31,909 nt of DNA from a virus: positions 1 to 31,909 of IMG/VR virus record IMGVR_UViG_3300009537_000097; one strand, written 5' to 3'. A model generated the notes under the pieces. That model did no database searches. It saw nothing but the letters and a program-made list of their open reading frames with translations, and was not told the DNA's origin. Below are positions 2,462-30,510 of the stretch, piece by piece (position 1 is the stretch's first letter; the number at the start of each line of letters is the position of its first letter). The translations under genes were made by a program, and so were the position numbers.

Positions 2462-2517
2462 CGAGCAAAGCAATTTACATATTGATCCAGCTATACGCTG
2501 AAAGGATGGGGCGGTAA
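2458..2517 (+). CDS. tiny 19-residue ORF between terL and the co-chaperonin
   Basis: GTG at 2458 overlaps the terL stop (GTGA) and the TAA at 2515-2517 overlaps the next ATG (TAATG), so the ORF exactly bridges two genes with the junction types used throughout this operon. The peptide is MTSKAIYILIQLYAERMGR, amphipathic with no known motif, and the ribosome site is weak (GGGG at about 2449). It may be a translated coupling peptide rather than a functional protein. Support is the junction geometry only. Confidence 0.3.
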   Translation: MTSKAIYILIQLYAERMGR

Positions 2518-2891: not shown

Positions 2892-2903
2892 CAGGAGAAC
2901 ACG

Positions 2904-3515: not shown

Positions 3516-3524
3516 GGGGGAAAA

Positions 3525-4348: not shown

Positions 4349-4353
4349 TTTTG

Positions 4354-4551
4354 ATGTTTAACGAAGGCGATAAGGTGAAATTATCTGTTGCCGGATCAGC
4401 TGATCGCGTACCCGAGATGGACGGCATTGAAGGCATTATTATTGATTATCCAGTAGCTAATAGTAATTGGGTGGCTGTTCTTTGGAATGGAAAGCGCCAG
4501 GCATGGACGGAACACAGGGACAATTTAATTAAAGTAGAGACAGGAGGCTAA
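4354..4551 (+). CDS. small SH3/KOW-like beta-barrel protein
   Basis: A 65-residue protein opening with FNEGDKVKL and containing MDGIEGIIID and WVAVLWNGKRQAWTEHRDNLIKV. This is the spacing of a small SH3-like or KOW-type barrel: a GD-x-V strand, a G-x-I/V strand, then a W-V-x-V-x-W strand. Such phage proteins often bind nucleic acid or other proteins, but no specific role is indicated. ATG at 4354 is preferred; TTG at 4351 is in frame just before it. The ribosome site is weak (GGTGG at 4339-4343), so coupling to the gene ending at 4348 is likely. Confidence 0.6.
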   Translation: MFNEGDKVKLSVAGSADRVPEMDGIEGIIIDYPVANSNWVAVLWNGKRQAWTEHRDNLIKVETGG

Positions 4552-4552
4552 A

Positions 4553-4804
4553 ATGCCAGCAGGAAAATCGTTGTCCTTTGTAGCAGGTGAATACCCGGAA
4601 CTCGACGGAATCGAAAGCGGAGCGAAAATAGAAGTGAGCGGGACTGCCACTGTAAATGTGAATGAGGATGGCTCCGGTGAGATTGTATTTGATTCAATGG
4701 AAATAGAAACCGAAGGAATTGCGACCAAAGAGCTTAAAGGCATGACCATGCAAGACGGCGTATACGCCGGTGGTGGACAGGCTGAGCAAGAAAGCACGTT
4801 TTAG
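4553..4804 (+). CDS. small acidic protein of unknown function
   Basis: An 83-residue acidic protein with a strong ribosome site (CAGGAGG at 4541-4547) six bases before its ATG. It is Gly/Glu/Val-rich with alternating strands (KIEVSGTATVNVNEDGSGEI), so a beta-sandwich fold is plausible, and it has no Cys, signal peptide or membrane span. It is the last gene before the terminator at 4837. No family is recognised. Confidence 0.65.
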   Translation: MPAGKSLSFVAGEYPELDGIESGAKIEVSGTATVNVNEDGSGEIVFDSMEIETEGIATKELKGMTMQDGVYAGGGQAEQESTF

Positions 4805-4836
4805 TAGTTTCATAACCGAGGCCAAGATTCACCAAG

Positions 4837-4875
4837 GCCCGCGAAATTCCACAATGGTGGATTCGTGGGCTTTTT
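4837..4875 (+). terminator. intrinsic terminator
   Basis: The arm GCCCGCGAAATTCCAC (4837-4852) pairs with GTGGATTCGTGGGC (4857-4870) around the loop AATG, with a two-base bulge and one G-T pair, followed by TTTTT (4871-4875). It closes the terminase-side operon 33 bases after the last stop and 17 bases before the next start, so it also forms part of the next gene's leader. Confidence 0.85.
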
Positions 4876-4891
4876 GTTTAAGGAGATATTC

Positions 4892-5296
4892 ATGAGCGGA
4901 TTCTTGAATCCCATCAGAGCCGAAGATGCAGGAGATGGATATCACCGCAGGTTATTGGAAAATGTTGTCTATCACGTTGGCAGGCCCGGCAGCAAAGATC
5001 GGATTATTGTTCCGAAAGGGTTTGAATGGGACGGGGGATCGGTCCCGCGCATTTTTTGGACCATAGTCGATCCGTGGGGACCAGCCTCAAAAGCCTACCT
5101 TCTCCACGACTGGCTCTACTACACGCATGACCGATCCAGGCTCGTATCAGATGCAATTCTCATGGAAGCGATGGAAGTGCTGGGCGTTCATTGGTTCAAG
5201 CGGAAATTGATTTACAAGGCCGTTCGCGCAGGCGGGTGGCTGCCGTGGTCAAGACGTGAGAAGGAACTAAAGAAAATGAATCGTAAGAGAGAGTAA
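4892..5296 (+). CDS. DUF1353 family phage protein
   Basis: A 134-residue protein with the DUF1353 signature: IVPKGFEWDGGSVPRIFW, then AYLLHDWLYYTHDRSRLVSDAILMEAMEVLGV and IYKAVRAGGW. The conserved D-G-x-S-x-P, H-D-x-L-Y and late Asp are all present. The family is widespread in phages, usually near tail or lysis genes, and its biochemical role is not settled; the HD pair suggests metal binding. The start at 4892 is chosen because AGGAGATATTC lies just before it; an upstream in-frame extension to 4865 would run through the terminator. Confidence 0.8.
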   Translation: MSGFLNPIRAEDAGDGYHRRLLENVVYHVGRPGSKDRIIVPKGFEWDGGSVPRIFWTIVDPWGPASKAYLLHDWLYYTHDRSRLVSDAILMEAMEVLGVHWFKRKLIYKAVRAGGWLPWSRREKELKKMNRKRE

Positions 5297-5541
5297 TGTC
5301 AGCCGGCCAGTACATTGATATTTTTGACACATACTTCGGTACTAAGCCGACTGTTTTGAGAGTTGATTACGCGTCCGATACCATATGGTACGAAGGCAAG
5401 GCCGAGTCCGGCGCGGCCACTAGCGCTGCCCGCTGGATCATACGCAGATCGACATTAGACAGCCAGGGTCGGATCGTATTGCGCGAATGGGCGCCGTTTA
5501 ACTCCGTTTGGTCAGACCGTGCCAGCTTGACGTACCAATGA
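5296..5541 (+). CDS. small conserved phage protein before the tail fibre
   Basis: An 81-residue protein whose ATG overlaps the DUF1353 stop (TAATG). The segments IWYEGKAESGAATSAARWIIRR and FNSVWSDRASLTYQ recur in short proteins found next to tail-fibre and structural genes of many phages. A compact beta fold is likely; it may be a virion or fibre accessory component. Its stop overlaps the fibre start (ATGA at 5538-5541), so the two are translationally coupled. Confidence 0.7.
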   Translation: MSAGQYIDIFDTYFGTKPTVLRVDYASDTIWYEGKAESGAATSAARWIIRRSTLDSQGRIVLREWAPFNSVWSDRASLTYQ

Positions 5542-8192
5542 AACGCGCAATCCTGATTGTTACCCTGTTCCTCTCCGGCCCGCTGCTAGCCGAGCAGATC
5601 AAACCCATGTACAACCCGGCGACTGGTAAGATCGACCTGATCACCGCTCTTTCGACTACCAGTATCGCCGCGGGTACAGGTATAGCTGTGACGACCACGA
5701 CTTCCGGCGTAACGATTACCGCCACTGGTGGCGGCGGCGCGTCTTCATTGGAGGTTTTTTCAACCTTTGACGGTACCAGATCGAGCCCAACAGCTTCCAT
5801 ATCCATAGGTGACGCATTGAAATTGAGTGTTACTGGTTCAACGGCTGTCGTGACCGTAGATTTCTCCTCCGTCCCGTCACGTTCTGATGTTATTCTCAAT
5901 CAGAATACCCTCCAATCCGGCTCCACGTTCTATGTGTCAAGTGGAACGGTAAATGGGACGCTTATAGTAAACGAGTCTACGGAAAATAAATTCCTCAGAA
6001 TGTACGGCGACACACCAGGCACCGGGCCGAAAAATGTTGTTATTCATGCAAAAACAAAAGAAGGTTTCGGCGTTGGCGGACAGCTTTTTATCGTTGCTTC
6101 CAGCCAGAGCGTTATCGGTGCTACTGGCGTAGCAAAGCAAACGTCCATAAGCCTGTACCCTCCAATCTCAAGCCCCGGCGGTGGGGCCATAATGATGAAT
6201 ATGGACGGTATCACGGCATTGTACATGGAAGCGAATTACACGGAAATGGATGCCGATCTCAGGGTAAACAGGGGGATCGAGGCGACCTACGGTATAAAAA
6301 CGGCGACGGCAACATTAACATCTTTAACTTCAAAAGGTTGTCTTGGAACTAACAGCAGCGGCGATGTTATTGAGGGTAATTGCATATCGGAGGTGACGCC
6401 TGGCTCAACCAATTATATCCAAGTAAGAAACACCCTCCAATCCGGTTCAACGTTCTATGTGTCAAGTGGTACGGTGACGAATCTGAACGTGGCGAATAAA
6501 TTTGTGGTAGGAAATGGGCTTTTGGATTACGTGAGCCCGCATTTATTCTTTAGTTCTCCCTTGGATTATTATGCGCTTAGGGCTGGATACGGTGAGATTT
6601 CAATCCCATCCAACGGCGGGGCATTGGACGTGTCGGCAGAAGGGTACGGAAGCGTATTTTCAGTGATTAATAACAGTGGAGTTGTAGATTTACAAGTCAC
6701 CAATACACTTGATGTTTTGGGGGATGTTATTTCTACTGCGGGTGTAAGCGGCGACACTGTTACCGGAAATACAGTCACGGCTTCCACCGATCTTGTTCTT
6801 GCAAGTCTTTTATCAAAAGATTGTCTCGGAACGGACGGTTCCGGAAATGTTATTGAAGGAACTTGCACAGGAGGCGGCGCATCCTCCCTCGAAGTATTCA
6901 GCCCCACCGCTCAGTCATCGCCAACGACTTCTATTTCGATTGCGGCCCCGTTGAAAATGACCGTTTCCGGTTCAACGGCCATTGTTACGGTGGACGTTTC
7001 CAGCGTAACCCTTCAAGGGAATAACCTCTCGGAAACCTACCTCACGAATTCCAGCGCCACGGCGACGTATTTCAATAAGCTGGCTCCCTACATTTCATCG
7101 GCCAACGTAAACGCCTCGCTCACCGTTACTGCCAACGGAACGGCCGGAGCCACGCCGACCTTTAGCGCCAACCCGTCCTCTGTAACGCTTTACGGAGCCA
7201 GTATTCCAGCCTCAGCGATTGCCGCGGGGAGCCTCGGATCATCCGTTCTTGCCTCATCCTTCCCCGTTACCGGAGTGACGGCAGGAAGCTACACCAACAC
7301 AAACATGACCGTGGACGCGCAAGGACGGGTCACAGCGGCGTCCAATGGGACAGTTGGATCATCGGTAAACGGAAGGCTGAGTTTGACATCCGGCGTTGCC
7401 ATTACTACATCTAATGTTACAAGCGCAGGCACATTGTATTTTACGCCTTACAACGGAAATAAAATATCGCTTTATGAGAGTTCAAATTGGGTTCTGTATT
7501 CTTTTTCACAGCTCTCATTGTCGCTGACATTAACTTCAGGAAAAAATTATGACGTTTTCGTTTACAATAACAGCGGTACGTTAACGCTTGAACTTTCCGC
7601 CGCATGGACAACAGACACGGAGCGCGCGGATGCTGTTATCTTGCAAGATGGTGTTTATGTTAAATCATCGAATACAACGAGAAGATTGGTAGGAACGATA
7701 CGGGCCTCAGGAACGAATGTAACCGAAGACAGCACATCGCGCCGTTTTGTGTGGAATCTATATAATAGGGTAGAAAGAATAATGCGAGCCTTGGAAACAA
7801 CGGACAGTTGGACGTATACAACCGCAACATTTAGGGAAGCCAATGGTGGGTCAACGCCGGGAGTGTCAAGATTTGACTATGTTGTTGGCTTTTCTGAGGA
7901 CTATTTGGATGTTCAAGTTTATGTTCCGGTTATAACTAATGCTGCGATAATATCGACCATTGCTGGTATAGGGATAGACAGTTCTTCTGTTAATTCAGCG
8001 AATTTATTTTATGGATTTACTCATTCAGATACGTTTGGATCGGCGCAGGCATTTTTCAAGGGACATCCAGGTATTGGGTACCACAGCATCAGATGGCTGG
8101 AATTTTCTACCGCCTCCGGGACCACAACATGGTATGGCGATAATGTCGGATTGGCTGTTGGAACCGGTATGCACGGGACGATCAAAGGGTGA
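5538..8192 (+). CDS. long tail fibre/spike protein with Sec signal peptide
   Basis: An 884-residue repetitive fibre. ATG at 5538 overlaps the previous stop and opens with basic MKR, a hydrophobic core AILIVTLFL and the site LLA/EQ near residue 18; the phage-fibre opening MYNPATGKIDLI follows at once. The body is Ser/Thr/Gly/Val-rich with duplicated modules: ASSLEVFS at about 68 and 448, NTLQSGSTFYVSSGTV twice, and a CLGT-x-SG-x-VIEG-x-C unit twice (two Cys each). Near residue 590 the common fibre motif NMTVDAQGRVTAASNG appears. The C-terminal third is non-repetitive and AT-richer, as expected for a receptor-binding tip. It would form the trimeric fibre that contacts the host. The signal peptide is unusual, since fibres are normally made and assembled in the cytoplasm. 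Confidence 0.85.
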   Translation: MKRAILIVTLFLSGPLLAEQIKPMYNPATGKIDLITALSTTSIAAGTGIAVTTTTSGVTITATGGGGASSLEVFSTFDGTRSSPTASISIGDALKLSVTGSTAVVTVDFSSVPSRSDVILNQNTLQSGSTFYVSSGTVNGTLIVNESTENKFLRMYGDTPGTGPKNVVIHAKTKEGFGVGGQLFIVASSQSVIGATGVAKQTSISLYPPISSPGGGAIMMNMDGITALYMEANYTEMDADLRVNRGIEATYGIKTATATLTSLTSKGCLGTNSSGDVIEGNCISEVTPGSTNYIQVRNTLQSGSTFYVSSGTVTNLNVANKFVVGNGLLDYVSPHLFFSSPLDYYALRAGYGEISIPSNGGALDVSAEGYGSVFSVINNSGVVDLQVTNTLDVLGDVISTAGVSGDTVTGNTVTASTDLVLASLLSKDCLGTDGSGNVIEGTCTGGGASSLEVFSPTAQSSPTTSISIAAPLKMTVSGSTAIVTVDVSSVTLQGNNLSETYLTNSSATATYFNKLAPYISSANVNASLTVTANGTAGATPTFSANPSSVTLYGASIPASAIAAGSLGSSVLASSFPVTGVTAGSYTNTNMTVDAQGRVTAASNGTVGSSVNGRLSLTSGVAITTSNVTSAGTLYFTPYNGNKISLYESSNWVLYSFSQLSLSLTLTSGKNYDVFVYNNSGTLTLELSAAWTTDTERADAVILQDGVYVKSSNTTRRLVGTIRASGTNVTEDSTSRRFVWNLYNRVERIMRALETTDSWTYTTATFREANGGSTPGVSRFDYVVGFSEDYLDVQVYVPVITNAAIISTIAGIGIDSSSVNSANLFYGFTHSDTFGSAQAFFKGHPGIGYHSIRWLEFSTASGTTTWYGDNVGLAVGTGMHGTIKG
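5907..6469 (+). repeat. direct DNA repeat within the tail-fibre gene (two copies)
   Basis: A near-identical segment of about 38 bases, beginning accctccaatccgg and ending tatgtgtcaagtgg, occurs at 5907-5944 and again at 6432-6469, differing at two positions. It encodes NTLQSGSTFYVSSG. It marks an internal module duplication and could recombine to change fibre length. Confidence 0.85.
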
Positions 8193-8196
8193 AATC

Positions 8197-8496
8197 ATGA
8201 GTATTCGATATCATGTCACAAAACTTGATAAAGAATTGAGAAGTGCGGGGATACCGATAATAAGCGTAAATTCTGAAGGTGTCATTACTTTTCATGAATC
8301 AGCCACATTGCAGCAACGGGAAACCGGGATACAGATAGTATCGAGGCATAACCCCGATTGGTATGTTGAAAAGAGGGTGGCGGCTTACGGAACCTTCGGC
8401 GATCAGTTGGACATGATTTATAAAGATAAAATAAACGGAACGAATACATGGATAAATCACATTACGAATGTAAAAACCATGTATCCAAAAAATTAA
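8197..8496 (+). CDS. fibre-associated small protein (GDQLDMIY motif)
   Basis: A 99-residue protein immediately after the tail fibre, with AAAGGGTGA (8184-8192) before the ATG at 8197. It contains ATLQQRETGIQIVSRHNPDWYVEKR and the C-terminal AYGTFGDQLDMIYKDKINGTNTW, a segment seen at the end of small tail proteins and some fibre C-termini in many phages. It may be a fibre assembly factor or a minor tail component. An in-frame extension upstream to 8011 would overlap the fibre gene and is not supported by a ribosome site. Confidence 0.75.
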   Translation: MSIRYHVTKLDKELRSAGIPIISVNSEGVITFHESATLQQRETGIQIVSRHNPDWYVEKRVAAYGTFGDQLDMIYKDKINGTNTWINHITNVKTMYPKN

Positions 8497-8672
8497 TGAA
8501 GGTTTTTTGCCTTCCTTGCAAAAATGAGTTTGAGCGATTGGATAAAGAGGTTATGGGTGAAACGTGGTGGTGCCGACAGTGCGGGGAAACCATATCCTTC
8601 GATTGGGATAAGGATACCGTTTCGATTGACAGGGAGCCAGAAAGTGGAAAGCGTAATTTTCGTAAAACGTAA
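8496..8672 (+). CDS. small zinc-ribbon protein
   Basis: A 58-residue protein starting at an ATG that overlaps the previous stop (TAATG). Two Cys pairs, FCLPCKN (C5, C8) and WCRQCGE, form a four-Cys zinc ribbon; the remainder is charged. An earlier in-frame ATG at 8448 would lie inside the preceding gene. The last 29 bases overlap the DUF5675 gene. It is one of four small Cys-cluster proteins in this window; its function is unknown. Confidence 0.65.
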   Translation: MKVFCLPCKNEFERLDKEVMGETWWCRQCGETISFDWDKDTVSIDREPESGKRNFRKT

Positions 8673-9048
8673 GATTTTCACTGATATTTCAACGATCAGT
8701 GAGTATTCTTTTGATAACGAGTCTTTGGGGTATATGTTAGAGGACACGGTGAGGAAGGACGGGGTGAAGGTGGCTGGTCAAACCGCCATCCCTTCAGGCC
8801 GATACGAGGTGGTGGTAAACTTCTCGAATCGGTTTCAGAAGTATCTGCCGCTCCTTTTGAACGTGCCTAATTTCACGGGCGTGAGAATACATCCTGGCAA
8901 CAGGCCGGAGGACACCGCCGGATGCTTGCTTCCGGGGAAAGGCCACGGCGATAACGTTGTTATGGACTCACGGACAGCTTTTAACGAGCTGTTTGCAAAG
9001 ATTCAAGAAGCATCGAAAAACAGAAAAGTTTTTCTTTCAATAGGATAA
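8644..9048 (+). CDS. DUF5675 family protein
   Basis: A 134-residue protein matching DUF5675: VKRKIFTDISTISEYS, LGYMLEDTVR, AIPSGRYEVVV, then FTGVRIHPGNRPEDTAGCLLPGK and a C-terminal SRTAFNELFAKI. The conserved I-P-x-G-x-Y and R-I-H-x-G-N segments are intact. The family occurs in phages and near virion or lysis genes; a cell-wall role has been suggested by context but is not established here. The start is GTG at 8644, which gives the family's normal N-terminus and has AGGGAG at 8629-8634; the longer reading from 8524 would add a segment overlapping the zinc-ribbon gene. Confidence 0.8.
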   Translation: MESVIFVKRKIFTDISTISEYSFDNESLGYMLEDTVRKDGVKVAGQTAIPSGRYEVVVNFSNRFQKYLPLLLNVPNFTGVRIHPGNRPEDTAGCLLPGKGHGDNVVMDSRTAFNELFAKIQEASKNRKVFLSIG

Positions 9049-9051
9049 GTC

Positions 9052-9324
9052 ATGGCGTGGGACGGCGAGGAGAGGCGAATGCAAGAAAGGGATCGAGACT
9101 TATTAACGAAAATAGATTCAAATTTAAGTAATTTCATGGTCCGTTATCAAGATCATATCGATCACTTTAACAAGCACATTTCGGATGACAAGGAAAATTT
9201 TAACGAGTTGAAAAAGAACCAGGATATCATGCGTGAAGGGCAGGATAAGACCCGCTGGGTTATTGCCATAGGGATAGGGATTGTTCTTTGTGTTGAATTT
9301 TTCAAGAACAAGATATTTCCATGA
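9052..9324 (+). CDS. coiled-coil protein with C-terminal membrane span (possible lysis protein)
   Basis: A 90-residue protein: a charged N-terminus (WDGEERRMQERDRD), a helical region of about 40 residues with heptad-like hydrophobics, then a single span WVIAIGIGIVLCVEFF and a short basic tail. This architecture, an amphipathic helix followed by one C-terminal span, is shared with XhlA-type and other holin-associated proteins. It overlaps the next gene (ATGA), which also has a single span. A lysis role is inference; no endolysin is recognisable in the window. Confidence 0.65.
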   Translation: MAWDGEERRMQERDRDLLTKIDSNLSNFMVRYQDHIDHFNKHISDDKENFNELKKNQDIMREGQDKTRWVIAIGIGIVLCVEFFKNKIFP

Positions 9325-9560
9325 AAATAAAGGAAATTATGCCAGATAAGGCTAAGATTGTTTTCGTTGTATTTGAGAGACTTGGCATCCCCACTGTCTT
9401 ATGTCTCGTATTTGGTTGGCTCTATTTCACGAAGCTGCAGAAGGTTATTGATGACGTGGCGTCGTTTCGGATTGACGTTAAGATTATCTCGGAGTTGTCG
9501 AAAGCCGATCACGAAGAAATAAAGCGGGAGATGCGGCGGTTATCTTTCAGGAGAGGGTAA
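9321..9560 (+). CDS. single-span membrane protein (holin- or spanin-like candidate)
   Basis: A 79-residue protein with a basic start, one membrane span (residues about 13-36, containing IPTVLCLVFGWLYF) and a charged helical C-terminus (IDDVASFRIDVKIISELSKADHEEIKREMRRL). Coupled to the previous gene by an ATGA overlap, so the two are likely partners. Together they could form a lysis pair, or a membrane anchor for virion assembly given the exported virion proteins elsewhere. No family is assigned. Confidence 0.65.
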   Translation: MKIKEIMPDKAKIVFVVFERLGIPTVLCLVFGWLYFTKLQKVIDDVASFRIDVKIISELSKADHEEIKREMRRLSFRRG

Positions 9561-9563
9561 TGA

Positions 9564-9758
9564 GTGGAGAAGAAACTTTCTTTCACGTCTTGCGAAGATT
9601 GTCCCTATATGAGGGTTGCCTTAATTGATTCGATAAGACACGACAAGGGATTCGATATCAAGTATCAGACAAACAAGAAGTTCTGCGGAAAGAAGGTTCA
9701 GGAAGTGACGGAGCATATAGAAAAGAAAAGGATACCTGAATGGTGTCCGCTGCCATGA
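9564..9758 (+). CDS. small Cys-rich phage protein (IPxWCPL type)
   Basis: A 64-residue protein with CEDCPYM near the N-terminus, a middle FCGKK and the C-terminal IPEWCPLP. This C-x2-C-P, C, I-P-x-W-C-P-L layout recurs in short phage proteins and probably binds zinc. GTG at 9564 has AGGAGAGGG (9549-9557) seven bases upstream; the ATG at 9560 is out of frame and leads to a short stop. Function is unknown. Confidence 0.7.
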   Translation: MEKKLSFTSCEDCPYMRVALIDSIRHDKGFDIKYQTNKKFCGKKVQEVTEHIEKKRIPEWCPLP

Positions 9759-9807
9759 ACGGTTTTAAAGAGTGGAATTTTAGGTTATAACTATATCTGG
9801 AGGTTTT

Positions 9808-10137
9808 ATGGAAATGGCGAATAGTGAACCAATGAAATATGTTCCTACGTCTGTTGTCCGGATAACGAAGTCGCAGGCAGCGGAACTTTCTATCGGAGAG
9901 AAGGTGTCGTTACAATTATCCGGTGAGATCCAGGCGTTAAGAAAATCAGATGACTATTACGAGGCTGAGATTAAGGGCGCCAGCGTGAACGGGATTGAAA
10001 TAAACAAAGCTGATCGAGCGATGAACGAAATGACCGGGACAGACAAGGCCATTAAGTCCGCCGCTGATAAGATCGTCAAGGCTATCGCAAAAACGCCGGC
10101 AGACCATTCTCTTGATAGGATAAATTATGGAAAATGA
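9808..10137 (+). CDS. small conserved protein upstream of the portal gene
   Basis: A 109-residue protein with GGAGG seven bases before the ATG. The first half is a small beta domain (VVRITKSQAAELSIGEKVSLQLSGEI, then DDYYEAEIKGASVNG); the second half is a charged helix (DKAIKSAADKIVKAIAK). No signal peptide. It precedes and overlaps the portal gene by 11 bases, so a head-assembly or portal-associated role is plausible, but no family function is known to me. Confidence 0.65.
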   Translation: MEMANSEPMKYVPTSVVRITKSQAAELSIGEKVSLQLSGEIQALRKSDDYYEAEIKGASVNGIEINKADRAMNEMTGTDKAIKSAADKIVKAIAKTPADHSLDRINYGK

Positions 10138-12223
10138 AATTACAGGCATCGGCGAACCGACCGTATCAACGATCCCGCGTACGCTTGAGGATTCCTATCT
10201 TAAGCGGATGGGAAAACTTATCGAACTTTCAGAAGCAGAGGAGAGAAATCTGAAGGCATGGCTTAAGAAGCAGTTAAACGATTGGGAATCGGATACCTCC
10301 GATCTTCATAAGATACTTGAAGAAGATAACGATTTGGTTGAAGGTTACGTTGATGAACCTTCCGGGATATATGAAGGGTGGGGATCAAACGTGCATGTGG
10401 ATGTCACGGGAATTTACATGGAGGTCTACCAGTCCATTGAAAAAAGGTCAATTTTGGGAGCCGACCAGATTTGGTATGCGGTGCCGGACCCGGAGGCTGA
10501 AGACGCTTTTGAAATAGTGGCCGACATAGACGAAATGCTTAATTACAAGGCACGCAACGAATGGAATATATCTCAAGCCATTCCGATGGCGATATGGGCC
10601 AAGAACCGGGATGGATTATGCGCGGTGCAGGTAACATGGGAGGAAAACTATAAAAAGTCTAACGATGTTATTTTAATTACAAGCGAAGATGAATTTATCG
10701 AACGGTTCCCCGCTCCTGAAAGCGCTGGCGTTGACGAAAACCAATGGAAAGAACTGCGCACCTATGTCGCTCAAAACGCCACCGAAGAAACGCCCGTCGA
10801 GATCCCCATTACGTTTAACAAGCTGGTCTATCATGGCAACAAGGCGCACGTTGTTGAATACGCGGATTTCGTTGTCTTGCCGGCTACCGCACCGAACATA
10901 TATGAAGATTGCTGCCGCGGATACGGTAAGCGGTTCCAGGAGTCAAAAGATGAGATCCGGCCAAAGATTAAAGATGAGATTTATTACAAGCAGTCAGCCG
11001 ACAGCCTTTTATCCAAAAAGCCAAAAGAGGTTAATAGTTACGTTCAGTCCAAGGATTATGTCGAAGGATTGAAGCGCAGCCGGGCCAATGGTTACGTTAA
11101 TTTTGAACTGGTGGTTAAGGGCCGCTTGAAAGGCGAAGATGATGAAGAAGGCAAGTATCTCGTTGTCTATAATCTTGAAAACGATATCCTTCTTCGGTGC
11201 GTTGAGTATTTTTACCGTATTGATTTTTACGCTGTTTTTGTCTTAAACAAGCGCCCAAACAGGCTGGGCGGCGTAAGTATTCCACGCAAGACGCGTGAAA
11301 CAAATGAGGAAGTGGACGTTCAGCATAATCAAAGAATTAACTCCCATGCGATCTCTGGCGTTCCTACTTTTATCACCAGCACAGACACGGATTGGGACCC
11401 GCAGGCACCCGAGAACCGGTGGCGACCAGGGCTCAGGATAAAGACCGACAAGCCGTTCCAGCAGTTTATCGTTCAGCCAACCGACCAGGGGAATTCCATG
11501 CAAGAGGAGGCGAATTCGTTCCGTATATTGGACCTTTCCCTTGGCTCTCCCGCCTCGCTATTTAGCGGTCAATCTGACGTAGGCGATCCTAATGCGCCAG
11601 GGAATAAGACCGCCATGCTGATTAACCAAGGGAATATGCGCATGGAGGACGTTTTGGATGAGGACCGGGACGGCGTTTCAATGATCGGCCAGATATGCCT
11701 TTCTCATATGTATCAATTTGGGCAGAATATCATTAAGTGGACATCCTCCAATATCGGTGCAAATGGGCAGACGCTAAGAGAAGTAAGGACCATCCATCGT
11801 AAGTTTCTTGCAAACGATATTAAGATGCACATGAAGGGCATTAACGTCATTAAAAATCCTGAATCGGAAATGGCTAAGGCTGCGGCCAGGCATCAGCTCC
11901 TAATGGCCGAGCCGCTGTTCGCCAATGACGCCGACCTGAGAATAAAATCCCTGCGTGAGGTTTTGAAAGCCGGGCGCGACCCCGTTGCTGACAATCTTCT
12001 TCCACCGGCAGAAGTCGTCCAGCAGAAACAAATCGAACTTCAAAAACAGGCCATTCTTCAGTTGCAGGCAGAAAAGATAATGCAGGAAAAACAAGCGCAG
12101 GAACAGGCGCTTAAAGAGCGAATCGGAAAAGCGCAACAGGATCTTCAGATACGAAGGCTGGCTGAACGATCCGCCGAAGCCAATCTAAGCAACAATACGC
12201 CCGACGAGGTGGCAAATGGATAA
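10127..12223 (+). CDS. portal protein
   Basis: A 698-residue portal of the size used by short-tailed phages. Twelve copies would form the ring at one capsid vertex through which DNA enters and leaves. Supporting segments are DEPSGIYEGWGSNVHVDVTGIYMEVYQSIEKRS (wing entry), the long alpha/beta middle, VSIPRKTRETNEEVDVQHNQRINSHAISGVPTF (stem/clip region) and SPASLFSGQSDVGDPNAPGNKTA, followed by an Arg/Lys-rich helical region. The C-terminal 80 residues are a Gln/Glu/Lys coiled coil (QKQIELQKQAILQLQAEKIMQ), like the barrel helices of P22-type portals. It has no signal peptide. The start ATG lies in the end of the preceding gene; the end overlaps the next gene by eight bases. Confidence 0.85.
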   Translation: MENEITGIGEPTVSTIPRTLEDSYLKRMGKLIELSEAEERNLKAWLKKQLNDWESDTSDLHKILEEDNDLVEGYVDEPSGIYEGWGSNVHVDVTGIYMEVYQSIEKRSILGADQIWYAVPDPEAEDAFEIVADIDEMLNYKARNEWNISQAIPMAIWAKNRDGLCAVQVTWEENYKKSNDVILITSEDEFIERFPAPESAGVDENQWKELRTYVAQNATEETPVEIPITFNKLVYHGNKAHVVEYADFVVLPATAPNIYEDCCRGYGKRFQESKDEIRPKIKDEIYYKQSADSLLSKKPKEVNSYVQSKDYVEGLKRSRANGYVNFELVVKGRLKGEDDEEGKYLVVYNLENDILLRCVEYFYRIDFYAVFVLNKRPNRLGGVSIPRKTRETNEEVDVQHNQRINSHAISGVPTFITSTDTDWDPQAPENRWRPGLRIKTDKPFQQFIVQPTDQGNSMQEEANSFRILDLSLGSPASLFSGQSDVGDPNAPGNKTAMLINQGNMRMEDVLDEDRDGVSMIGQICLSHMYQFGQNIIKWTSSNIGANGQTLREVRTIHRKFLANDIKMHMKGINVIKNPESEMAKAAARHQLLMAEPLFANDADLRIKSLREVLKAGRDPVADNLLPPAEVVQQKQIELQKQAILQLQAEKIMQEKQAQEQALKERIGKAQQDLQIRRLAERSAEANLSNNTPDEVANG

Positions 12224-21921: not shown

Positions 21922-24900
21922 ATGGCGCTTGTTCCGCTTGAGGAATCAACGCGCCGCCGAAGGCTGGTCCCGATTGACGAACCCGTCAAACGTAAGCTGG
22001 TCCCGATTGGCGACCGGGAAGCAGGGGTTTTAGACCAACCACCGGGATTCCCGGTAAGAAGCGCTATTCGCACCGCGATCAAAAGCCTGCCTTTCCAGAA
22101 CCTGCCGCCTGAAGTTGAGCGGCTTGGCAGGGCCGAGGCTGCCGGCACGGCCAGGAGCGCGGCTGGTATCCTGCCGTTAATTCAAGGCGGACTTAAGCGA
22201 ACACCATTGGCCCCGCTTGTACCTGAGGGCGATGTATCCGGGCCTTTAATTCGAGCAGCCGAAAGAATCGAGCCGAAAGACCAGGGTTTTATCGAAAAAC
22301 TTCTTTCCGGGCGGATGTCCGATTCGGAACTTTTGGACAGTATTCGCTCCGTGTCGCCTTTAATATCGCAAGCGAGCCCGCTTACAGGTGCCGCCTTATC
22401 TAAAATCCCGACCGAAGAAAGCATCCTGGCTGAATCAGCTTCCAGTGGTCAGGTTCCTTACGGACAAATTTTGACCCGCGCACTGGCTGAAGGGTTTATC
22501 GGTGCTGTCCGGCCTTTGCTTCCAACCAATCCGGTCGAACTGGCCAATCTTGCCGCAGCTCCGCCATCCGTAAAATTTCTTCAAAACGAATTCCCGATTT
22601 TGAGCCGCGATATTGTCGGTATGATCCTTAAAAACAGGGTTAAAGTTCCGGACGAAAAGCTACCGGAAATAATGAAAAATACATTTGAAGTCGGAATGGA
22701 TTCCTACACGAAAGGCGCCTCCGCTCCGCAGGCCAGGAAGGCCATGCTCCAAAACTTTGAGCAGGAAGCCGCGTCCGCTCGCGGTCAAGCAGAGGCTGGT
22801 ATTCGCTCAAGACAAGGAGCGCCGCAGACCGGAACGCTTCCTTCCACCAGAGCGCCCGGCGGAATTCCGGTGACGGAATTGGAGATTCCCGGTAAGGTTC
22901 AGCGTAATGTCGATATTGCCATTGATACCATCAGTAAGGCATTGGGGAAGAAACCGTCTGCCGGGCCTATCGAGGCGCAGGGAACGGTTTTAGGTGAAGA
23001 AGACATATCCGGTATTGCTGGAATTGCAAAGCCGCCGCCTACCCGTCCTATCCAGCAAACACCGTATTCCTCCATTGTCACACCTGAAGGCGCTCAAAAC
23101 ATCGCCTCCAAGTTCCCGGCCATCTCAACCGTATTGGAAGGCCAGAACCTTCCCTTATCACCACAGGATGCCCAAAAAATTATTAAAAAGGCCAATGCCG
23201 TAGGCGAGGAGGCCCTGATCCGTGGTGCAACACCAGGACAGGCCAATGCGGCCGCTGGCGAGGCGTTAAAGGCCACTCTCATGCCCAAGTTGCAGCAGTT
23301 GGCCCAGGCCAAAACACCAAAGCCAAAAACCGTCAAATACGATAAACGGGGTGTCCCGATCCTTAAGCCCGGTTCGGTCGTTTTAACGGTTCAAGACGAA
23401 TCTGGCAAACCAATCAGGATAAAGCACAAGGACGCGCTCGAGTACGCTGAAGGGTTGCATCGGGAAGCTATGGAGAAATGGGAATTTATTAAAAACGATC
23501 CCGTTCGGTCCGCTATCGCCAGAGTTGGGATCGCGCCCGAGCGGCCGGATCAGTTTGGAATTTCCCCTGAGAGCGGTGAGTACGAACGGCTGCCAAAGAA
23601 CGCAAAGAACAAAAACGGAAGGACTGTTACGGAATGGGTCGAGAATCTTAACGAAGGAAAGGCGGAGCAGGATATAGATGCAAGCTATGTCTACGATATT
23701 GCAAAAAATCTTGAGGTCCCGCCCAAGCCAAAAATGGGCGATTCTTACCGGCAGGCGATACATGATCTCGAAGGCGAGCTGTCCGGCCTGTCAACCTACC
23801 AGCCACCGACCGCAGGCGCTTTTGAGGCGCGTGCCGCTTACGCTGAAAGTGCTCAGCCGTTTTACTCCCCGCTGAAACGCGCCATCGAAGCCAAGATGCC
23901 TAACCGGGCGCCGGCGCAGATGGTCAAGAACATCGTAAACAGCCAGGACGTGAAAAAGGAGGAAACCGACTGGATCGAAATCAACGAATGGCTGGACCAG
24001 CAGAAGGGCCCGGTATCAAAAGAGTCTGTCCTTAAATTCATTGATGACAATACCGTTGAGATTGAAGAAGTGGTCAAGGGTGACAAGTCCACGGATTTGA
24101 TCCGAAGGTTCACCCAGCAGATTGAAGAAAAAGGGTACGGGGTTATAAGGCACGACGACGGCGGCTACGAGGTTTACAAGGACGGCCGGTTCCTGCTTGA
24201 CGACGAACTGCCTAAAGACGTTAAGAACCTCTCCGAGCTTTTACAGAAAGCCATAGCGAAAGAAGGGACAAGCAACACGAAATTTGAGAAGTACACGCTT
24301 CCGGGGGGAGAGAACTACAGGGAGGTGTTGCTGACGCTGCCGGAAAAGGTTCCGGATAAATTGCCGGAAGGATTTTATACAAATAAAACTTCGTATGGAT
24401 GGGAGATTGTGAATCGGGAAGGCGGTCGATTCGCGATGCCTACGCAACCGACGGAAACGTTGGCGGTCGAGAAATTTAATCAGGCGCTTAGTGCGGAAGG
24501 CGGTTTTCGTTCTGCTCACTTCCCCGAACCCAACATCCTCGCCCACATCCGGATTGACGACCGCATAGACACTCAGGGCAACAAGGTTCTTTTCATTGAG
24601 GAGATTCAGTCTGATTGGGGGCAAAAATTAAGAGAGAGCGCTGACCTCAGGAAAGTTTCCAAGCCAGAGAGTGTTTCTAAACTTGCGACCGATTTCTTCG
24701 GCAGAGAGATAGCGTCCGGTATTTCTTTCAATCAAATGGATGGTGGCGTGCTGGCTCTTGCTGACAACGATCAGATTAAGCGGGCGATTATCTCGCTTTT
24801 GCCCATTGATATGGTGAATCAACTCGGTGGGAAGGAGGCGGCGACCAAGAAGTTTCTCAGCAATCCGTCGATGATCGGCGCGGACCTCCCCATCGATGCT

Positions 24901-27900
24901 CGTCTTACGGTGGCGCAAGGGATTCTCGATGCGGCGCGCCAAACTTTTGCAAGCACGCGAACAAAACTTCTTGCCGGGCTTAAGGCTGGGCGGGACATAG
25001 AGCTTCTTCCCGCATTGAAGGCAAGTAATCTCACAGCCCGCGAAGTTATAAGCACGCTTTCCCCTCAGAGCCTTTATCATGTGGACCTGTCTCAGGAGGC
25101 CGTCGGTGGCAACATAGCAAGGGGAGGAGCAGAAATATCCTCCGCGCCCGATCTTGCTATACGGGACACGAAACGACTTCCCGCAACCGACGCAGAATTT
25201 CTCAATGCTCCAATTCCGGCAAGCATAAGCGCAAAATCTGGCCGCGGACAATCTTCCGATCTTCGTGGTGAACTTTCTTCCACAAGTATTGCAAAAGCGC
25301 TGGACTGGCATAATCATATTATATCAGAAACAGGCGTTTCAAAACCAGTTAATTACAAGACTGCTAATTTGCCAAAAATGCCTTTTGAAAAATCATGGAT
25401 GGATCTTAGCCTCAAACGAATTCTGCGTTTTGCCGCCGAGAACGGCTACGATTCCATCGCGTGGACCACGGGTTCCCAGCAGGCGGAGCGGTATGACCTG
25501 AGCAAACAGGTAAATAAAATTGAATTTAATAAAACTCGCGATGGCCAATGGGTTGATGTAAATATTTACACACCCGACAGAAAAGAACCTATTAGATATG
25601 GTGATTTAACACATGAAAAATTGAAGGATACCGTCGGAAAAGAACTGGCTCAAAAAATTGTTGATTCAAAAGAAACGCGCGGAGATTTCTCCGGCCTCGA
25701 CCTAAAAATCGGCGGCGAAGGCATGAAAGGTTTTTACGACCAGATGATTCCCTCCTTCCTAAACAAGTACACGAAGAAGTGGGGCGGGAGAGTGGGGGAG
25801 ACAACCTTCCCGGAACAACGCATTGGCGATTTGCCTGCGCCGACGGCCCGTTCTTTTACGGCGCATAGTCTTGATATTACTCCAAGCATGAAGGAGTCCG
25901 TCCTGCAAGGCCAGTCCCTCTTTGAAAAGACTGGCGATCCCTACCAACAGGAGTTAAACTTTGCCGGTGGACAAGAAACCGGTAATTTACCAGCCCAGCC
26001 AGGAACGCCTCCTGGTCCCCGACCAACCGTGCGAGGTGGTTTTAAGGCCATATACAACCCGCACATCGAAGTTAAGTACAAGAAAGTCGGGTCCATCGTC
26101 ATCCCCAACCAAGTCCTCCAGGAACCAGCCGACCTTGCCTATGCGTTCAAAGAATTAAAGAACGAAGCTCAGGAGAATTTCTTTCTTGCCGCCATGAAAA
26201 ACGGCAGGATTGTAGCCGTTGAGCATTTGGGCTTCGGAACCATCGACCAGGTGGCTGTTTACCCTTACGAAACCATCAACCTTATAAACAAAACGGAAGC
26301 GGATTCGTTTCTAATTGTTCATAACCATCCGTCCGGTGAAATTAGCCCATCTCAAGAAGATAAAAATCTAACTATGGCTATTAAAAGAGCCATTGAAAAC
26401 AGCGGCGCGAAATTTAATGGCCATGTCATTATTAACGATGGAAAGTTTGGTTTTATAAATAAAGACATGGGCGTTTCCGAAGGTATTCAAAAGGAATACG
26501 AAAAGACGAAAAACATTTCCGTTTTGAAGAAGTATTTCGAGTGGTCGACAACCAAGGGAGAAATTGCGTCAAGACCGCTGCTAAGCTCGCCGGATAAAGT
26601 TTTTGAAGTATTCAAAGGGATTCAAACAGGCGCGGATGAAGGCGTGGCCTACCTTCTGGATGTTCAAAATAGAACGTTGAACGCGGTTGTCCTACCGCAT
26701 GGCCGGTTTAATACTGGAACAATCCAAAATATCGCCACGTCCTATCGTGCCGCGGGCATTGTTTTAGTTAACTCGAAACTTACAAATAGGGAAGCCGCGT
26801 CATTAAAGGGCGAATTGGGAACGGCTGGCATCCGCTTAATGGATGACATTGAGCTTGACCCGACATTTCGCGGATACAAATCAAGGATCGAGTCGGGAGT
26901 GTTTGAGTCTCCTTCACCTTACAGCTACGGAGCCAAGGAAGATACCGGCGAATTCTTCGGGATCGAGAAGGAGAACGTCGCCGACAAGTACATGCGCCTG
27001 CGCCGGGAGGCGATGAACCAGGGCATGAGCCATTCCGAAGCCATGAAATGGGCCAAAGCCAGGCTCCGCGGCGAGCCGGAGGGCGCCCCCACATCTGAAA
27101 TTAAACCGGCCCAGTCCGAGTTTACCGTTGAAGGCGGGGTCCAGAGTTTCGGCAAAGGAAAGAAAGGCGAGTCCGACATGTTCGGGAGCAAGGGCGGATC
27201 GGTTATCGACGCATTTGAGCCCATCGAAACGCCGGAAACCATCGCGGCCCGAAAGAATTTCAAGCTGGCCGACCGGGCGCTTGAGGTGGTCCGCAAGTTC
27301 GCGGGCCGGATCGGCGAGAAGTACCAGATGCGCGGCGCGCAAGGCCATTTTAATCCCAGGACGAACAATATCCGGATCAACTCCATGAACAACGTGTCCA
27401 CCGTGACCCATGAGGTGGTCCACTTCCTTGACCAGAAGTTCGGGTTCATCAAACCGCTCATGGAAAAGACCGGTGTATCGAGAACCGGCAACCCGATTTA
27501 CAGCCAACGCTGGGCCGCGATGCGCAAAGCCATCACGCAGGCTTACATCGAGTATTACCCTGGGGCCAGGAAGGAGCATAAGCTCCAAAAGAGACTGGCT
27601 GAAGGGCTGGCTGCCTTTATTCAGCAGTACGCCCAGTCACCTTCAACGGTGAGTGCGAAATACCCCGACCTGTCCAAAGTCCTTTTGGGTGAATTCTCCG
27701 CGAATATGGCTGTTCCCCCGGAATGGAAGGCGTCTGCGCCACAATTCAAGGAACTGGTTGATGATGTCCGCAAGATAGCCTCGGACTACCAGAAACTCGA
27801 CCCCAACGAAAAGATCGGGGCTAGGGTGGCTGAAGGGTTAAGGCAGGAGAATGAAAAGCTGCCGTTCATGTCGAAATCAGATTATCTCAAAACCGAAACC

Positions 27901-30510
27901 ATTGACGACGTGTTCCCCATTAAACGGTTAGCTCAAGAGTTTGGGAAAGCAGGCACAAAAGCGGACCCTGCGGATTGGATACGCGTATTTAACGCAGTCA
28001 ACTCCATCATTTACGGCAACCTTCGCGGGAAACTCGGCGTAGCCAGTAAAGTGTCGGGCGTGTTTTCGGGCCGGCACGGGTTCTGGTCGTTCAAGAACGG
28101 CCAGCCCATCAAAGTGAGCGAAACGAACTGGCGCGATTTGGAAAAGTCCTTGCGGGACGCCGGACTGCGGGAACAATTTCGTAATTGGCTGATCGCAAGG
28201 GACCAGCATTTCCTCCATTTGGAACTGGACAAAAAGCATCGAGCCGCGGAAGAAGCCGCCAAAATCCTGGCTGGGGCAAGAGAAGGCGAACAGATAGCAG
28301 GCAAAGATGTTGAGGAATTAAAAAAGGCTATCAAGGATTTCGCTGAATTGCGCGAGCAGCTGGCAAAGAACAGGATACCAAGACAGCTGGCGATAAGCGC
28401 CTACGAACAGGACAAGGACATCATGGCGCCGTTCGCCAAAGAGTTCGACACGTTTACTAGGGCGATGGTGGACCTGGCCGGCGATCCGACGGTCGGTCTT
28501 TTAACTCCCGACCAGGTGGCTCAATATCATTCGAGAGAAGGCTACGCGCCGCTTAAACGTGATGTGTTTGACGATATTTTGGCCGGAGAAAGTTCGTTTG
28601 GCGGCGGCCGGTCGATCAAGCCGTCATCTTTCAAGCAGCGAACGGGCAGCGAACTCCCCATCATCGACCCATTGTTTTCGTTCCCGCATGACATGGCCGA
28701 GGTGTTCCGTAAGTCCATTAAGCAACTGGTAATTAACAAGGTCGCCAATATCCTTGAAGAATTCCCCCAGTCCGGGCTGGCCGAACCGCAGCAGTTAAAG
28801 CCGTTTGTGGACAAGGAAACCGGGAAGATATCCTACCCTCAAGAACGGGACCCGAATATCCTCATGGCCAGGAGCCCGGACGGAAAAAGAAAACCTTATC
28901 TGGTAAACGCGGAGCTGAAAAAGGTTATCGAGGAGCTGCTGGATTACCGGAGCGCGGACATCCTCGCCCGGATCATGCGCGGGACCAGCCGTATCTTTAC
29001 AGCCAGCACGACCGGGCTTTATCCTCCGTTCGCTCTTATGAACGTTATCAGCGACCAGATTCAAGCCGCGTCGAACTCGATGCACAAAACGATCCCGTTC
29101 TTTAGCACGGTTAAAGTCTTGCGCAAAGTCCTTTTCGATCACGAATCTCCAGAAGCCAGGTTCGCAGCCGAGTATCTTGCGATGGGCGGCGACAGGCAGA
29201 CTATAACCAATGCGTTAAGCCTCCCTCCGGAGGAATTTGACCAGTGGCTGATGCAGGAGAAGAAGGGACTGGATCATCTGGTTGACTGGCTGGATACAGG
29301 TTCCGAGATTCTTGGGTTCCCGTCGAAGGTGAGCGAACTTTCCACCAGAATGGTTGAGTACATCCGTTCCCGGATGGCCGGCAAGGAATATGTGAACGCT
29401 TTGGAGGACGCTGGAATGGTTACAGGTCCGTTTCATCATCAGGGGCGACTGGTTCTAACTAAACGTGGCAGGGTTCGAGGCCAGCAGACGCCCATGACCA
29501 CACTGGTCCGCAGTATTCCGTTCTTTAACGCCGGGGTCCAGTCCATAAGGGTCCATATCGAATCGCTCAAAGGGTCAAGGGGCGAGAACGTAAGGAATCG
29601 GGCGATGTTCGTTGTGATGGCGTCGATGGCCGCGGCGATTGCGTCCTCGTATTGGATCATGAAGAAGGCGACCAAAGAGCAGAAGAATCTTTACACCGAA
29701 CTGGACCCGCAGGAACTGGCGAGCTATATATGGCTCCCGGCCGCAGACGGGAAGCGGTTAACGAAAATAAAGATGTACGGCCCTCAAATGGGGCTGGCGA
29801 CCGTATTCAATATGGGCATGTGGGAAATGGCGGGTGAAACAAGCTATGTCGGAGGCGAGTACGCCGATGCCGGGACCGCCTGGCTTCCGGACCAACTTAC
29901 TATCGGATCGCCTTCCAGGCTGTTCTTCTCCTGGCTGCCGCAGATCATTAAGCCGTGGATGGAAACTCTAACCGGAGTCAAGGTCTGGCCGTCGGTCCGG
30001 CCGCTTGAAACGATGGGCATGAAGAACCAGGAGCCTCGGTTCCGGTTCCATGAGCGGACCCCGGAATACGCCAAATGGCTAGGCGATAAACTGAACCTCT
30101 CACCGGTAAAAATTGACCACCTGATCGAAGGGCTCATGGGCCGCGGGACGCGCCCCTTTCTTGGCAAGGAGATCAAGAACCCGTTTATGCGGGAATGGTA
30201 TTTTACGGCCGGCAGGACGCTTCAAGACTATTACGAACAGCGCGAGGAATCGAATGGACTTTACAACTCGTTACAGAAAGGCGAACGGGAGTTCACTCTG
30301 GACGAAACCGTTAAGATTATCAAGCAGCGCCAGCAGATCCACGGCAAGCCGGCCAAGCGAGGGCAGAAGGGCGAGCCGGGCATAGACGATTTGATTAAAC
30401 GATACCGCGATTTGAATAAAACCGGCGTGCCGGACGAAGATCAGGACGCGATCAGAGATTTGATACTGGAGAGGATATCCACGTTTAGGCAGGGAGTGAA
30501 GCTGAAATGA
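21922..30510 (+). CDS. giant polyvalent protein with RadC/JAMM and zincin-type domains
   Basis: A 2,862-residue multidomain protein of the phage polyvalent class, whose members are thought to enter the host with the DNA and counter defences. Parts in order: LVP[LI] repeats (3-29); long helical and linker regions; a large-polyvalent domain start (FYSPLKRAIEAKMP, KEETDWIEINEWL); HIRIDDRIDTQGNKVLFIEEIQSDWGQ (about 875-901); an insert carrying the antisense HNH gene (about 904-1130); the domain's second half (AAENGYDSIAWTTGSQQAERYDLSK, DLKIGGEGMKGFYD, up to about 1320); a RadC/JAMM peptidase-like domain with complete H1467-N-H1469, S1477, D1480; a second RadC-like unit without these residues (about 1571-1645); HEVVH at 1830-1834; helical regions; and a C-terminal LPD38-like domain from RSIPFFNAGVQSIRV (about 2530). 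There is no signal peptide. Domain calls are by motif only. Confidence 0.85.
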   Translation: MALVPLEESTRRRRLVPIDEPVKRKLVPIGDREAGVLDQPPGFPVRSAIRTAIKSLPFQNLPPEVERLGRAEAAGTARSAAGILPLIQGGLKRTPLAPLVPEGDVSGPLIRAAERIEPKDQGFIEKLLSGRMSDSELLDSIRSVSPLISQASPLTGAALSKIPTEESILAESASSGQVPYGQILTRALAEGFIGAVRPLLPTNPVELANLAAAPPSVKFLQNEFPILSRDIVGMILKNRVKVPDEKLPEIMKNTFEVGMDSYTKGASAPQARKAMLQNFEQEAASARGQAEAGIRSRQGAPQTGTLPSTRAPGGIPVTELEIPGKVQRNVDIAIDTISKALGKKPSAGPIEAQGTVLGEEDISGIAGIAKPPPTRPIQQTPYSSIVTPEGAQNIASKFPAISTVLEGQNLPLSPQDAQKIIKKANAVGEEALIRGATPGQANAAAGEALKATLMPKLQQLAQAKTPKPKTVKYDKRGVPILKPGSVVLTVQDESGKPIRIKHKDALEYAEGLHREAMEKWEFIKNDPVRSAIARVGIAPERPDQFGISPESGEYERLPKNAKNKNGRTVTEWVENLNEGKAEQDIDASYVYDIAKNLEVPPKPKMGDSYRQAIHDLEGELSGLSTYQPPTAGAFEARAAYAESAQPFYSPLKRAIEAKMPNRAPAQMVKNIVNSQDVKKEETDWIEINEWLDQQKGPVSKESVLKFIDDNTVEIEEVVKGDKSTDLIRRFTQQIEEKGYGVIRHDDGGYEVYKDGRFLLDDELPKDVKNLSELLQKAIAKEGTSNTKFEKYTLPGGENYREVLLTLPEKVPDKLPEGFYTNKTSYGWEIVNREGGRFAMPTQPTETLAVEKFNQALSAEGGFRSAHFPEPNILAHIRIDDRIDTQGNKVLFIEEIQSDWGQKLRESADLRKVSKPESVSKLATDFFGREIASGISFNQMDGGVLALADNDQIKRAIISLLPIDMVNQLGGKEAATKKFLSNPSMIGADLPIDARLTVAQGILDAARQTFASTRTKLLAGLKAGRDIELLPALKASNLTAREVISTLSPQSLYHVDLSQEAVGGNIARGGAEISSAPDLAIRDTKRLPATDAEFLNAPIPASISAKSGRGQSSDLRGELSSTSIAKALDWHNHIISETGVSKPVNYKTANLPKMPFEKSWMDLSLKRILRFAAENGYDSIAWTTGSQQAERYDLSKQVNKIEFNKTRDGQWVDVNIYTPDRKEPIRYGDLTHEKLKDTVGKELAQKIVDSKETRGDFSGLDLKIGGEGMKGFYDQMIPSFLNKYTKKWGGRVGETTFPEQRIGDLPAPTARSFTAHSLDITPSMKESVLQGQSLFEKTGDPYQQELNFAGGQETGNLPAQPGTPPGPRPTVRGGFKAIYNPHIEVKYKKVGSIVIPNQVLQEPADLAYAFKELKNEAQENFFLAAMKNGRIVAVEHLGFGTIDQVAVYPYETINLINKTEADSFLIVHNHPSGEISPSQEDKNLTMAIKRAIENSGAKFNGHVIINDGKFGFINKDMGVSEGIQKEYEKTKNISVLKKYFEWSTTKGEIASRPLLSSPDKVFEVFKGIQTGADEGVAYLLDVQNRTLNAVVLPHGRFNTGTIQNIATSYRAAGIVLVNSKLTNREAASLKGELGTAGIRLMDDIELDPTFRGYKSRIESGVFESPSPYSYGAKEDTGEFFGIEKENVADKYMRLRREAMNQGMSHSEAMKWAKARLRGEPEGAPTSEIKPAQSEFTVEGGVQSFGKGKKGESDMFGSKGGSVIDAFEPIETPETIAARKNFKLADRALEVVRKFAGRIGEKYQMRGAQGHFNPRTNNIRINSMNNVSTVTHEVVHFLDQKFGFIKPLMEKTGVSRTGNPIYSQRWAAMRKAITQAYIEYYPGARKEHKLQKRLAEGLAAFIQQYAQSPSTVSAKYPDLSKVLLGEFSANMAVPPEWKASAPQFKELVDDVRKIASDYQKLDPNEKIGARVAEGLRQENEKLPFMSKSDYLKTETIDDVFPIKRLAQEFGKAGTKADPADWIRVFNAVNSIIYGNLRGKLGVASKVSGVFSGRHGFWSFKNGQPIKVSETNWRDLEKSLRDAGLREQFRNWLIARDQHFLHLELDKKHRAAEEAAKILAGAREGEQIAGKDVEELKKAIKDFAELREQLAKNRIPRQLAISAYEQDKDIMAPFAKEFDTFTRAMVDLAGDPTVGLLTPDQVAQYHSREGYAPLKRDVFDDILAGESSFGGGRSIKPSSFKQRTGSELPIIDPLFSFPHDMAEVFRKSIKQLVINKVANILEEFPQSGLAEPQQLKPFVDKETGKISYPQERDPNILMARSPDGKRKPYLVNAELKKVIEELLDYRSADILARIMRGTSRIFTASTTGLYPPFALMNVISDQIQAASNSMHKTIPFFSTVKVLRKVLFDHESPEARFAAEYLAMGGDRQTITNALSLPPEEFDQWLMQEKKGLDHLVDWLDTGSEILGFPSKVSELSTRMVEYIRSRMAGKEYVNALEDAGMVTGPFHHQGRLVLTKRGRVRGQQTPMTTLVRSIPFFNAGVQSIRVHIESLKGSRGENVRNRAMFVVMASMAAAIASSYWIMKKATKEQKNLYTELDPQELASYIWLPAADGKRLTKIKMYGPQMGLATVFNMGMWEMAGETSYVGGEYADAGTAWLPDQLTIGSPSRLFFSWLPQIIKPWMETLTGVKVWPSVRPLETMGMKNQEPRFRFHERTPEYAKWLGDKLNLSPVKIDHLIEGLMGRGTRPFLGKEIKNPFMREWYFTAGRTLQDYYEQREESNGLYNSLQKGEREFTLDETVKIIKQRQQIHGKPAKRGQKGEPGIDDLIKRYRDLNKTGVPDEDQDAIRDLILERISTFRQGVKLK
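24628..25317 (-). CDS. three-zinc-ribbon HNH endonuclease nested antisense in the giant gene
   Basis: A 229-residue protein on the minus strand, wholly inside the polyvalent gene. Three zinc ribbons of the form C-x2-C-x16/17-C-x3-C are visible (C9/C12/C29/C33, C42/C45/C63/C67, C99/C102/C119/C123), the last Cys pairs each in an FC-x3-C setting. An HNH domain follows: ELIHHINGQKRDNRPLNL, with H168-H169, N181 and H190. This is the build of free-standing HNH homing-type endonucleases. Its codons pair exactly with those of the + strand frame, which stays open throughout, so it uses no TTA, CTA or TCA codon. No ribosome site precedes ATG 25317 or ATG 25311, but TGATATAAT lies just upstream. It probably arrived as a mobile gene; whether it is expressed is unknown. 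Confidence 0.85.
   Translation of the reverse strand: MIMPVQRFCNTCGRKFTTKIGRLSAARFCAYACRNWSIEKFCVGCGKSFRVPYSKIGRGGYFCSSPCYVATDGLLRQVHMIKALRGKRAYNFAGCEITCLQCGKKLYVPPSLKPGKKFCSRACKSLARRIENPLRHRKTSIDGEVRADHRRIAEKLLGRRLLPTELIHHINGQKRDNRPLNLIVVSKSQHATIHLIERNTGRYLSAEEIGRKFRNTLWLGNFPEVSALS
25318..25326 (-). promoter_or_regulatory. putative extended -10 promoter for the HNH gene
   Basis: On the minus strand, TGATATAAT (25326 down to 25318) is a perfect extended -10 sequence and is followed at once by ATG 25317. A start point about seven bases on would fall at the second ATG (25311), giving a leaderless message beginning at Met3 of the listed protein. There is no good -35 sequence. The bases also encode sense codons of the giant gene. 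Confidence 0.3.

Follow-up and report, generated by a model that had tools for sequence, protein, structure and literature searches.

How can a complete gene for a probably mobile nuclease lie inside another protein gene, on its opposite strand, and leave that gene readable from end to end? The question is raised by the window, a 31,909-nucleotide stretch of viral DNA (positions 1 to 31,909 of IMG/VR record IMGVR_UViG_3300009537_000097), in which an HNH endonuclease gene is nested antisense in the gene of a giant polyvalent protein. Our answer, to which we give a probability of roughly 0.8, is that homing-type HNH genes can stay within coding sequence unspliced, the overlapping frame being held open by selection for the host gene. 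The observations, all made on sequence, are the nesting itself, the openness of both frames, its independent recurrence, sites that lack the block, constraint on two strands, ribosome-binding sites at some copies, and one decayed copy whose host frame is intact. The locus consists of the following features.

21922..30510, plus strand: host gene, a 2862-amino-acid large polyvalent protein with a RadC-like JAB domain and LPD38 toward the C-terminus
24295..24624, plus strand: N-terminal portion of a host domain, ending EEIQSDWGQ
24628..25317, minus strand: HNH endonuclease gene, 229 amino acids, antisense and codon-aligned with the host frame
24745..24873, minus strand: HNH_3 catalytic domain, amino acids 149-191, with the motif HHINGxKxDN..NL
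24949..25023, minus strand: zinc-ribbon-like motif 3 (C99, C102, C119, C123), invariant among 7 relatives
25117..25194, minus strand: zinc-ribbon-like motif 2 (C42, C45, C63, C67), read from the sequence
25219..25293, minus strand: zinc-ribbon-like motif 1 (C9, C12, C29, C33), likewise
25313..25342, minus strand: promoter-like TTGAAA-18-TATGAT (10/12), a consensus match only
25318..25377, minus strand: AT-rich 60-bp leader, 32% GC, upstream of the HNH start and open in the host frame
25378..25950, plus strand: C-terminal portion of the host domain, beginning MPFEKSW

The minus-strand open reading frame (ORF) at 24628-25317 runs from an ATG start to a TAA stop over 229 amino acids and carries three CxxC...CxxxC motifs (amino acids 9-33, 42-67, and 99-123). 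Its match to HNH_3 (PF13392; E 4.6e-9, amino acids 149-191) scores 36.2 bits against a curated cut-off of 24.8, several HNH families of PHROG match it as well, and HHIN..D-N..NL..H is invariant in its relatives; it is therefore an HNH protein, complete and with three zinc-ribbon-like motifs, as the original prediction had it. The host, bearing LPD38 and RadC domains, is a large polyvalent protein. The HNH and host frames are codon-aligned, 24628-21922 being a multiple of 3, and the plus-strand ORF 21922-30510 continues uninterrupted across the HNH block, which agrees with the roughly 230 open codons first reported. The sense translation of the block alone matched no Pfam or PHROG family, and its codon use in the host frame scores lower than that of all 690-base host windows. 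Between the HNH start and host sequence lies the leader, whose GC content of 32% compares with about 53%, and which was probably carried along with the insertion. An extended -10 element, TGATATAAT, overlaps the promoter-like sequence and abuts the HNH ATG, again as a consensus match only. The GC content also drops to 41.5% at 25318-25700, just downstream of the block and more broadly than the leader, possibly through older recombination.

In the codon-aligned register, only TTA, CTA, and TCA codons of the HNH gene would break the host frame, so that host selection would need to remove just those. Roughly 36 Leu and Ser codons had been said to avoid all three; there are exactly 36, and none is TTA, CTA, or TCA. 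The accompanying estimate of chance, 3e-5, assumed even codon use and was about 20-fold too small, the locus's own codon usage giving 5.6e-4. As the chance per gene is no smaller than this for the window HNH and reaches 0.05 in some copies, and the cases were chosen by their openness, one could explain the open host frame by the accidents of codon usage and the pattern by selection bias. We consider this very unlikely. With 8, 12, 8, and 9 stops in its remaining four frames, the window block is not just a stretch poor in stops. Reverse stops number 0 in nested genes and on average 1.92 per 100 codons in free relatives of equal GC, whereas the other four frames average 2.0-8.7 stops per 100 in nested genes and 3.6-5.3 in free ones, a density that is normal or high in most of these frames of the nested genes. 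The forbidden codons thus do occur in HNH homologues, but in free relatives and not in nested copies: intergenic L137, 70% identical to the nested L138, has three reverse stops and L134 likewise three, whereas the nested members of their clade have none. The 20 free HNH genes flanked on both sides by antisense genes all looked intergenic, and reading their neighbouring proteins revealed no evident broken host. Moreover, the constraint on nested copies exceeds stop avoidance.

One may also ask which strand is the gene. Since the copies have an open host frame and can be aligned in that reading, the plus strand might encode a genuine polyvalent domain, of which the HNH protein would be a mirror image. 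The closest relative found of the window HNH (48% identity) lies in L001/L116, antisense in a giant polyvalent ORF and in another loop of the same domain. Of the codons that differ between the window and L001, 34 are synonymous in the HNH frame alone and 9 in the host frame alone, which makes HNH the primary constrained strand, and identity is 75/140 for HNH against 50/140 for the host frame. On this substitution pattern we reject the sense-strand domain as the real gene. Since, in addition, the cysteines and the HHIN motif match free HNH genes outside any host gene and the sense block lacks a family match, the mirror-image explanation is extremely improbable.

Nevertheless, the host strand is not free to vary. 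Disjoint nested pairs were compared with free HNH pairs matched for identity (0.53) and GC, giving 7 versus 18 independent pairs. In the nested pairs p3/p1 was 1.28 versus 1.60 in the free ones (p=8e-6), third-position differences were 0.545 versus 0.624 (p=0.001), host-strand identity was 0.364 versus 0.278 (p=0.012), and synonymous differences without Leu and Ser codons were 0.476 versus 0.562 (p=0.03). The host-strand reading of nested copies thus also appears constrained, and protein-level constraint on both strands, as in an antisense overlapping gene pair, is found, on few independent pairs.

The block is bounded by the conserved QSDWGQ (ending at 24624) and MPFEKSW (starting at 25378) of one domain, with about 250 residues between them in the window. 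When 85 polyvalent homologues without the block were aligned, the gap from the QSDW side to the PFxxxW side was 8-146 amino acids, unconserved and variable in length, indicating that the site tolerates length change and is not strictly invariant. The window HNH, judged by this alignment, occupies a natural hypervariable loop of the host domain. A second, independent site is a loop of 14-19 amino acids in homologues and of 224 in L116. A third, the ART-PolyVal loop after GTGEGAQAYGxGxY, is common to L122, L138, and L206, and is empty in Methanosarcina virus MetMV H180, which aligns in one piece across it. Occupied and empty alleles are therefore both at hand (85 homologues; the L116 site), taken from distant homologues and not from strains. 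The claim of an insertion into a continuous domain gains from these homologues and from the L116 site; what it missed is that the loop is naturally variable. In an AlphaFold model (48 sequences), the host domain adjoining the block had a predicted local distance difference test (pLDDT) score of mostly 86-98 and the block mostly 30-69; the sense block by itself was of low confidence (pLDDT 51). A fold search with the host-domain model gave no useful PDB match.

If the block were removed at the RNA or protein level, by an intron, an intein, or ribosome bypass, the open frame would be incidental. HNH genes are common in group I introns and inteins, and bypassing is known from T4 gene 60 (PMC5009743). 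We reject an intron, because neither the window region nor 16 nested loci had a match in Rfam, with no group I or II intron detected, and no intein domain was found in the window, the block included, or in the scanned antisense hosts. Besides, were the block taken out, an open frame would not have to be selected for. Removal is thus a highly improbable explanation, and selection on the host gene remains the one we prefer.

The arrangement is not confined to the window. A search for the same HNH family elsewhere in antisense, as the original prediction proposed, found at least 19 further copies (family-wide searches and a mechanical survey), which makes 20 on 17 contigs, all codon-aligned: in the window, L116 (2), L118, L119, L120 (2), L122, L129, L138, L141 (2, one decayed), L143, L190, L199, L206, L207, L278, L279, and L305. 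Host ORFs are 1045-3181 amino acids long (at least 667 in L129, cut by the contig end). Most of the host ORFs scanned against Pfam, which were those outside L129, L278, L279, and L305, bear LPD1/3/5/37/38, ART-PolyVal, or InPase domains; the L143 host has no Pfam match but contains the QSDW domain, and the L120 host has no Pfam match. Three hosts carry two antisense HNH genes each, namely L116 (3900-4580 and 4998-5570), L120 (493-990 and 1411-2031), and L141. In the L116 polyvalent protein (1017-10559) a GGDEF domain, that of diguanylate cyclases, is present too. A tree of 173 HNH cores, built on few columns and with many unresolved forks, requires the antisense label to change 7 times, and well-supported branches force at least 3 of these gains or losses. 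Within a clade of 14 (SH-aLRT, an approximate likelihood ratio test, 95) there are 11 antisense rows and L129, together with L134 and L137, both of which are intergenic. A PDB sequence search with the HNH alignment gave weak helical matches only and no homing endonuclease, and a plasmid search gave one weak match. L119 and L120 have in common a host-frame flank, DVTPxSDVxLGGA..ET, beside the block and upstream of the HNH start, which suggests that a 5' leader of about 70 bp may be part of what moves.

Related HNH genes are also nested on the same strand, in another frame, within phage N6/N4 DNA methyltransferase genes whose frame stays open (L353-L360, L157, L162, L165, L174, L192, L291, and L294). 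They occur in the cultured mycobacteriophages Bipolar, ShiLan, Starcevich, MISSy, OwlsT2W, Filuzino, and Mantra and in cyanophage Cr-LKS3, in all of which the methyltransferase is annotated straight through. In five phages the block is 96-99.6% identical to that of MISSy, while the methyltransferase flanks are 47-77% identical, which points to recent lateral movement in this class. Two-frame counts on the near-identical mycobacteriophage copies gave very few changes. Among the antisense copies, no close pairs were found for the same comparison.

These relatives help to decide whether the nested nucleases are still mobile or have become domesticated dual-coding genes, with the phage using both products, for example for nuclease-based exclusion of competitors. 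The constraint on both strands and the three hosts with two copies each would fit domestication, as would the strong Shine-Dalgarno sites of several copies: matches of at least 6 nt precede 5 of 18 nested starts, against a background of 0.6%. However, occurrence is patchy, at different sites and in different genes, the close free relatives L137 and L134 lie between genes, and the methyltransferase blocks are much more conserved than their flanks. In addition, the copy at L141:6498-6758 is a fossil: stops interrupt its HNH frame but its host frame continues intact, which is what one would expect were the host gene alone required. It is the sole copy lacking an intact HNH frame, and this asymmetry is what a parasite within a host gene predicts; a sense-profile search of the fetched loci for more fossils returned L141 only. 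Domestication is therefore unlikely, though less so than the other alternatives.

We thus favour a homing-type HNH gene that, with a short leader, would have moved antisense and codon-aligned into a variable loop of the polyvalent gene. The HNH protein would cut the empty allele, and repair would drive its spread. Insertions into variable loops may survive where an open host frame can be maintained, and a codon-aligned antisense position would be favoured because only three codons are forbidden. The host ribosome would translate the block as an extra loop of roughly 230 residues, so that coding would be dual, with a nuclease on the minus strand and a tolerated insert on the plus strand; host function is presumably intact despite the block. 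Regarding the hidden homing parasite first proposed, antisense nesting and its recurrence are observed, and homing itself we infer.

Several points weigh against this view. The 20 copies are not phylogenetically independent, and nearly all antisense copies are metagenomic. The joint chance over copies, 10^-59, is post hoc, since an open host frame was the very mark by which a copy was classed as nested, and for this reason and because of the non-independence we do not rely on it. A close relative of the window was not found, either with the block or without it, the evidence for recent mobility comes from the same-strand class and not from antisense copies, and the window HNH start has no Shine-Dalgarno sequence. 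Finally, the host reading of the block, being predicted with low confidence, may be a burden and not a domain.

HNH homing endonucleases borne by introns or inteins, such as the I-HmuI type, rely on splicing. Like the nested copies, they lie inside a coding gene without destroying it, but the search for splicing elements found none here, and the host frame runs through the nuclease gene on its opposite strand. Free-standing HNH homing endonucleases such as the T4 mob genes, mobE, and mobA have the HNH catalytic motif and patchy occurrence in common with the nested copies, and mobile behaviour in common with the relatives of these; however, the known ones lie between genes or split the host into two ORFs (PMC2988022), whereas here the host ORF is whole. 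Long ORFs embedded antisense in another gene are known from pop/ompA (PMC7103648), laoB (PMC5810103), and asa (PMC6294744) in EHEC (enterohaemorrhagic Escherichia coli). Those ORFs originated de novo, by overprinting of an older gene; in the present case an old and widespread enzyme family moved in, and it is the host reading that became the new one. The host genes belong to the large polyvalent proteins (LPD, ART-PolyVal; Iyer 2017, PMC5512222), whose description mentions HNH once in the main text, in connection with GmrSD, and says nothing there of antisense or inserted genes.

Residence of phage homing endonucleases has been described as intergenic, intron, or split-gene (PMC2988022), and splicing as the route to harmless invasion of coding sequence (PMC3943268). 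In the open-access literature searched, subscription papers being outside its scope, we found no precedent for an antisense-nested HNH arrangement. On balance, we lean towards a fourth mode of residence beside intergenic, intron, and intein, in which nucleases sit inside protein genes, antisense or in an alternative frame, with mutually open frames; it would have arisen several times, would amount to recurrent two-strand coding under selection, and would give the host new loops after nuclease decay. The nested genes appear to stay in coding sequence by keeping both strands readable, which offers many natural replicates on which to test two-strand coding and could account for segments of phage polyvalent proteins and methyltransferases that would otherwise seem odd. 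It would also be a route by which a parasite's antisense reading turns into new protein sequence, and it is a warning that genome annotation hides such genes.

A different HNH ORF lies antisense in the annotated methyltransferase of cultured Mycobacterium phage MKC-IRE-02 (L361:1441-1809); it is not codon-aligned, and as the host frame would be open by chance with a probability of 0.056, this single case is weak. Intein-like sequence is present in the methyltransferases of L355 (ShiLan gp65) and L356 (Starcevich gp66), and LAGLIDADG-like insertions in those of L165 and L360; the phage methyltransferase gene is a hot spot for mobile elements.

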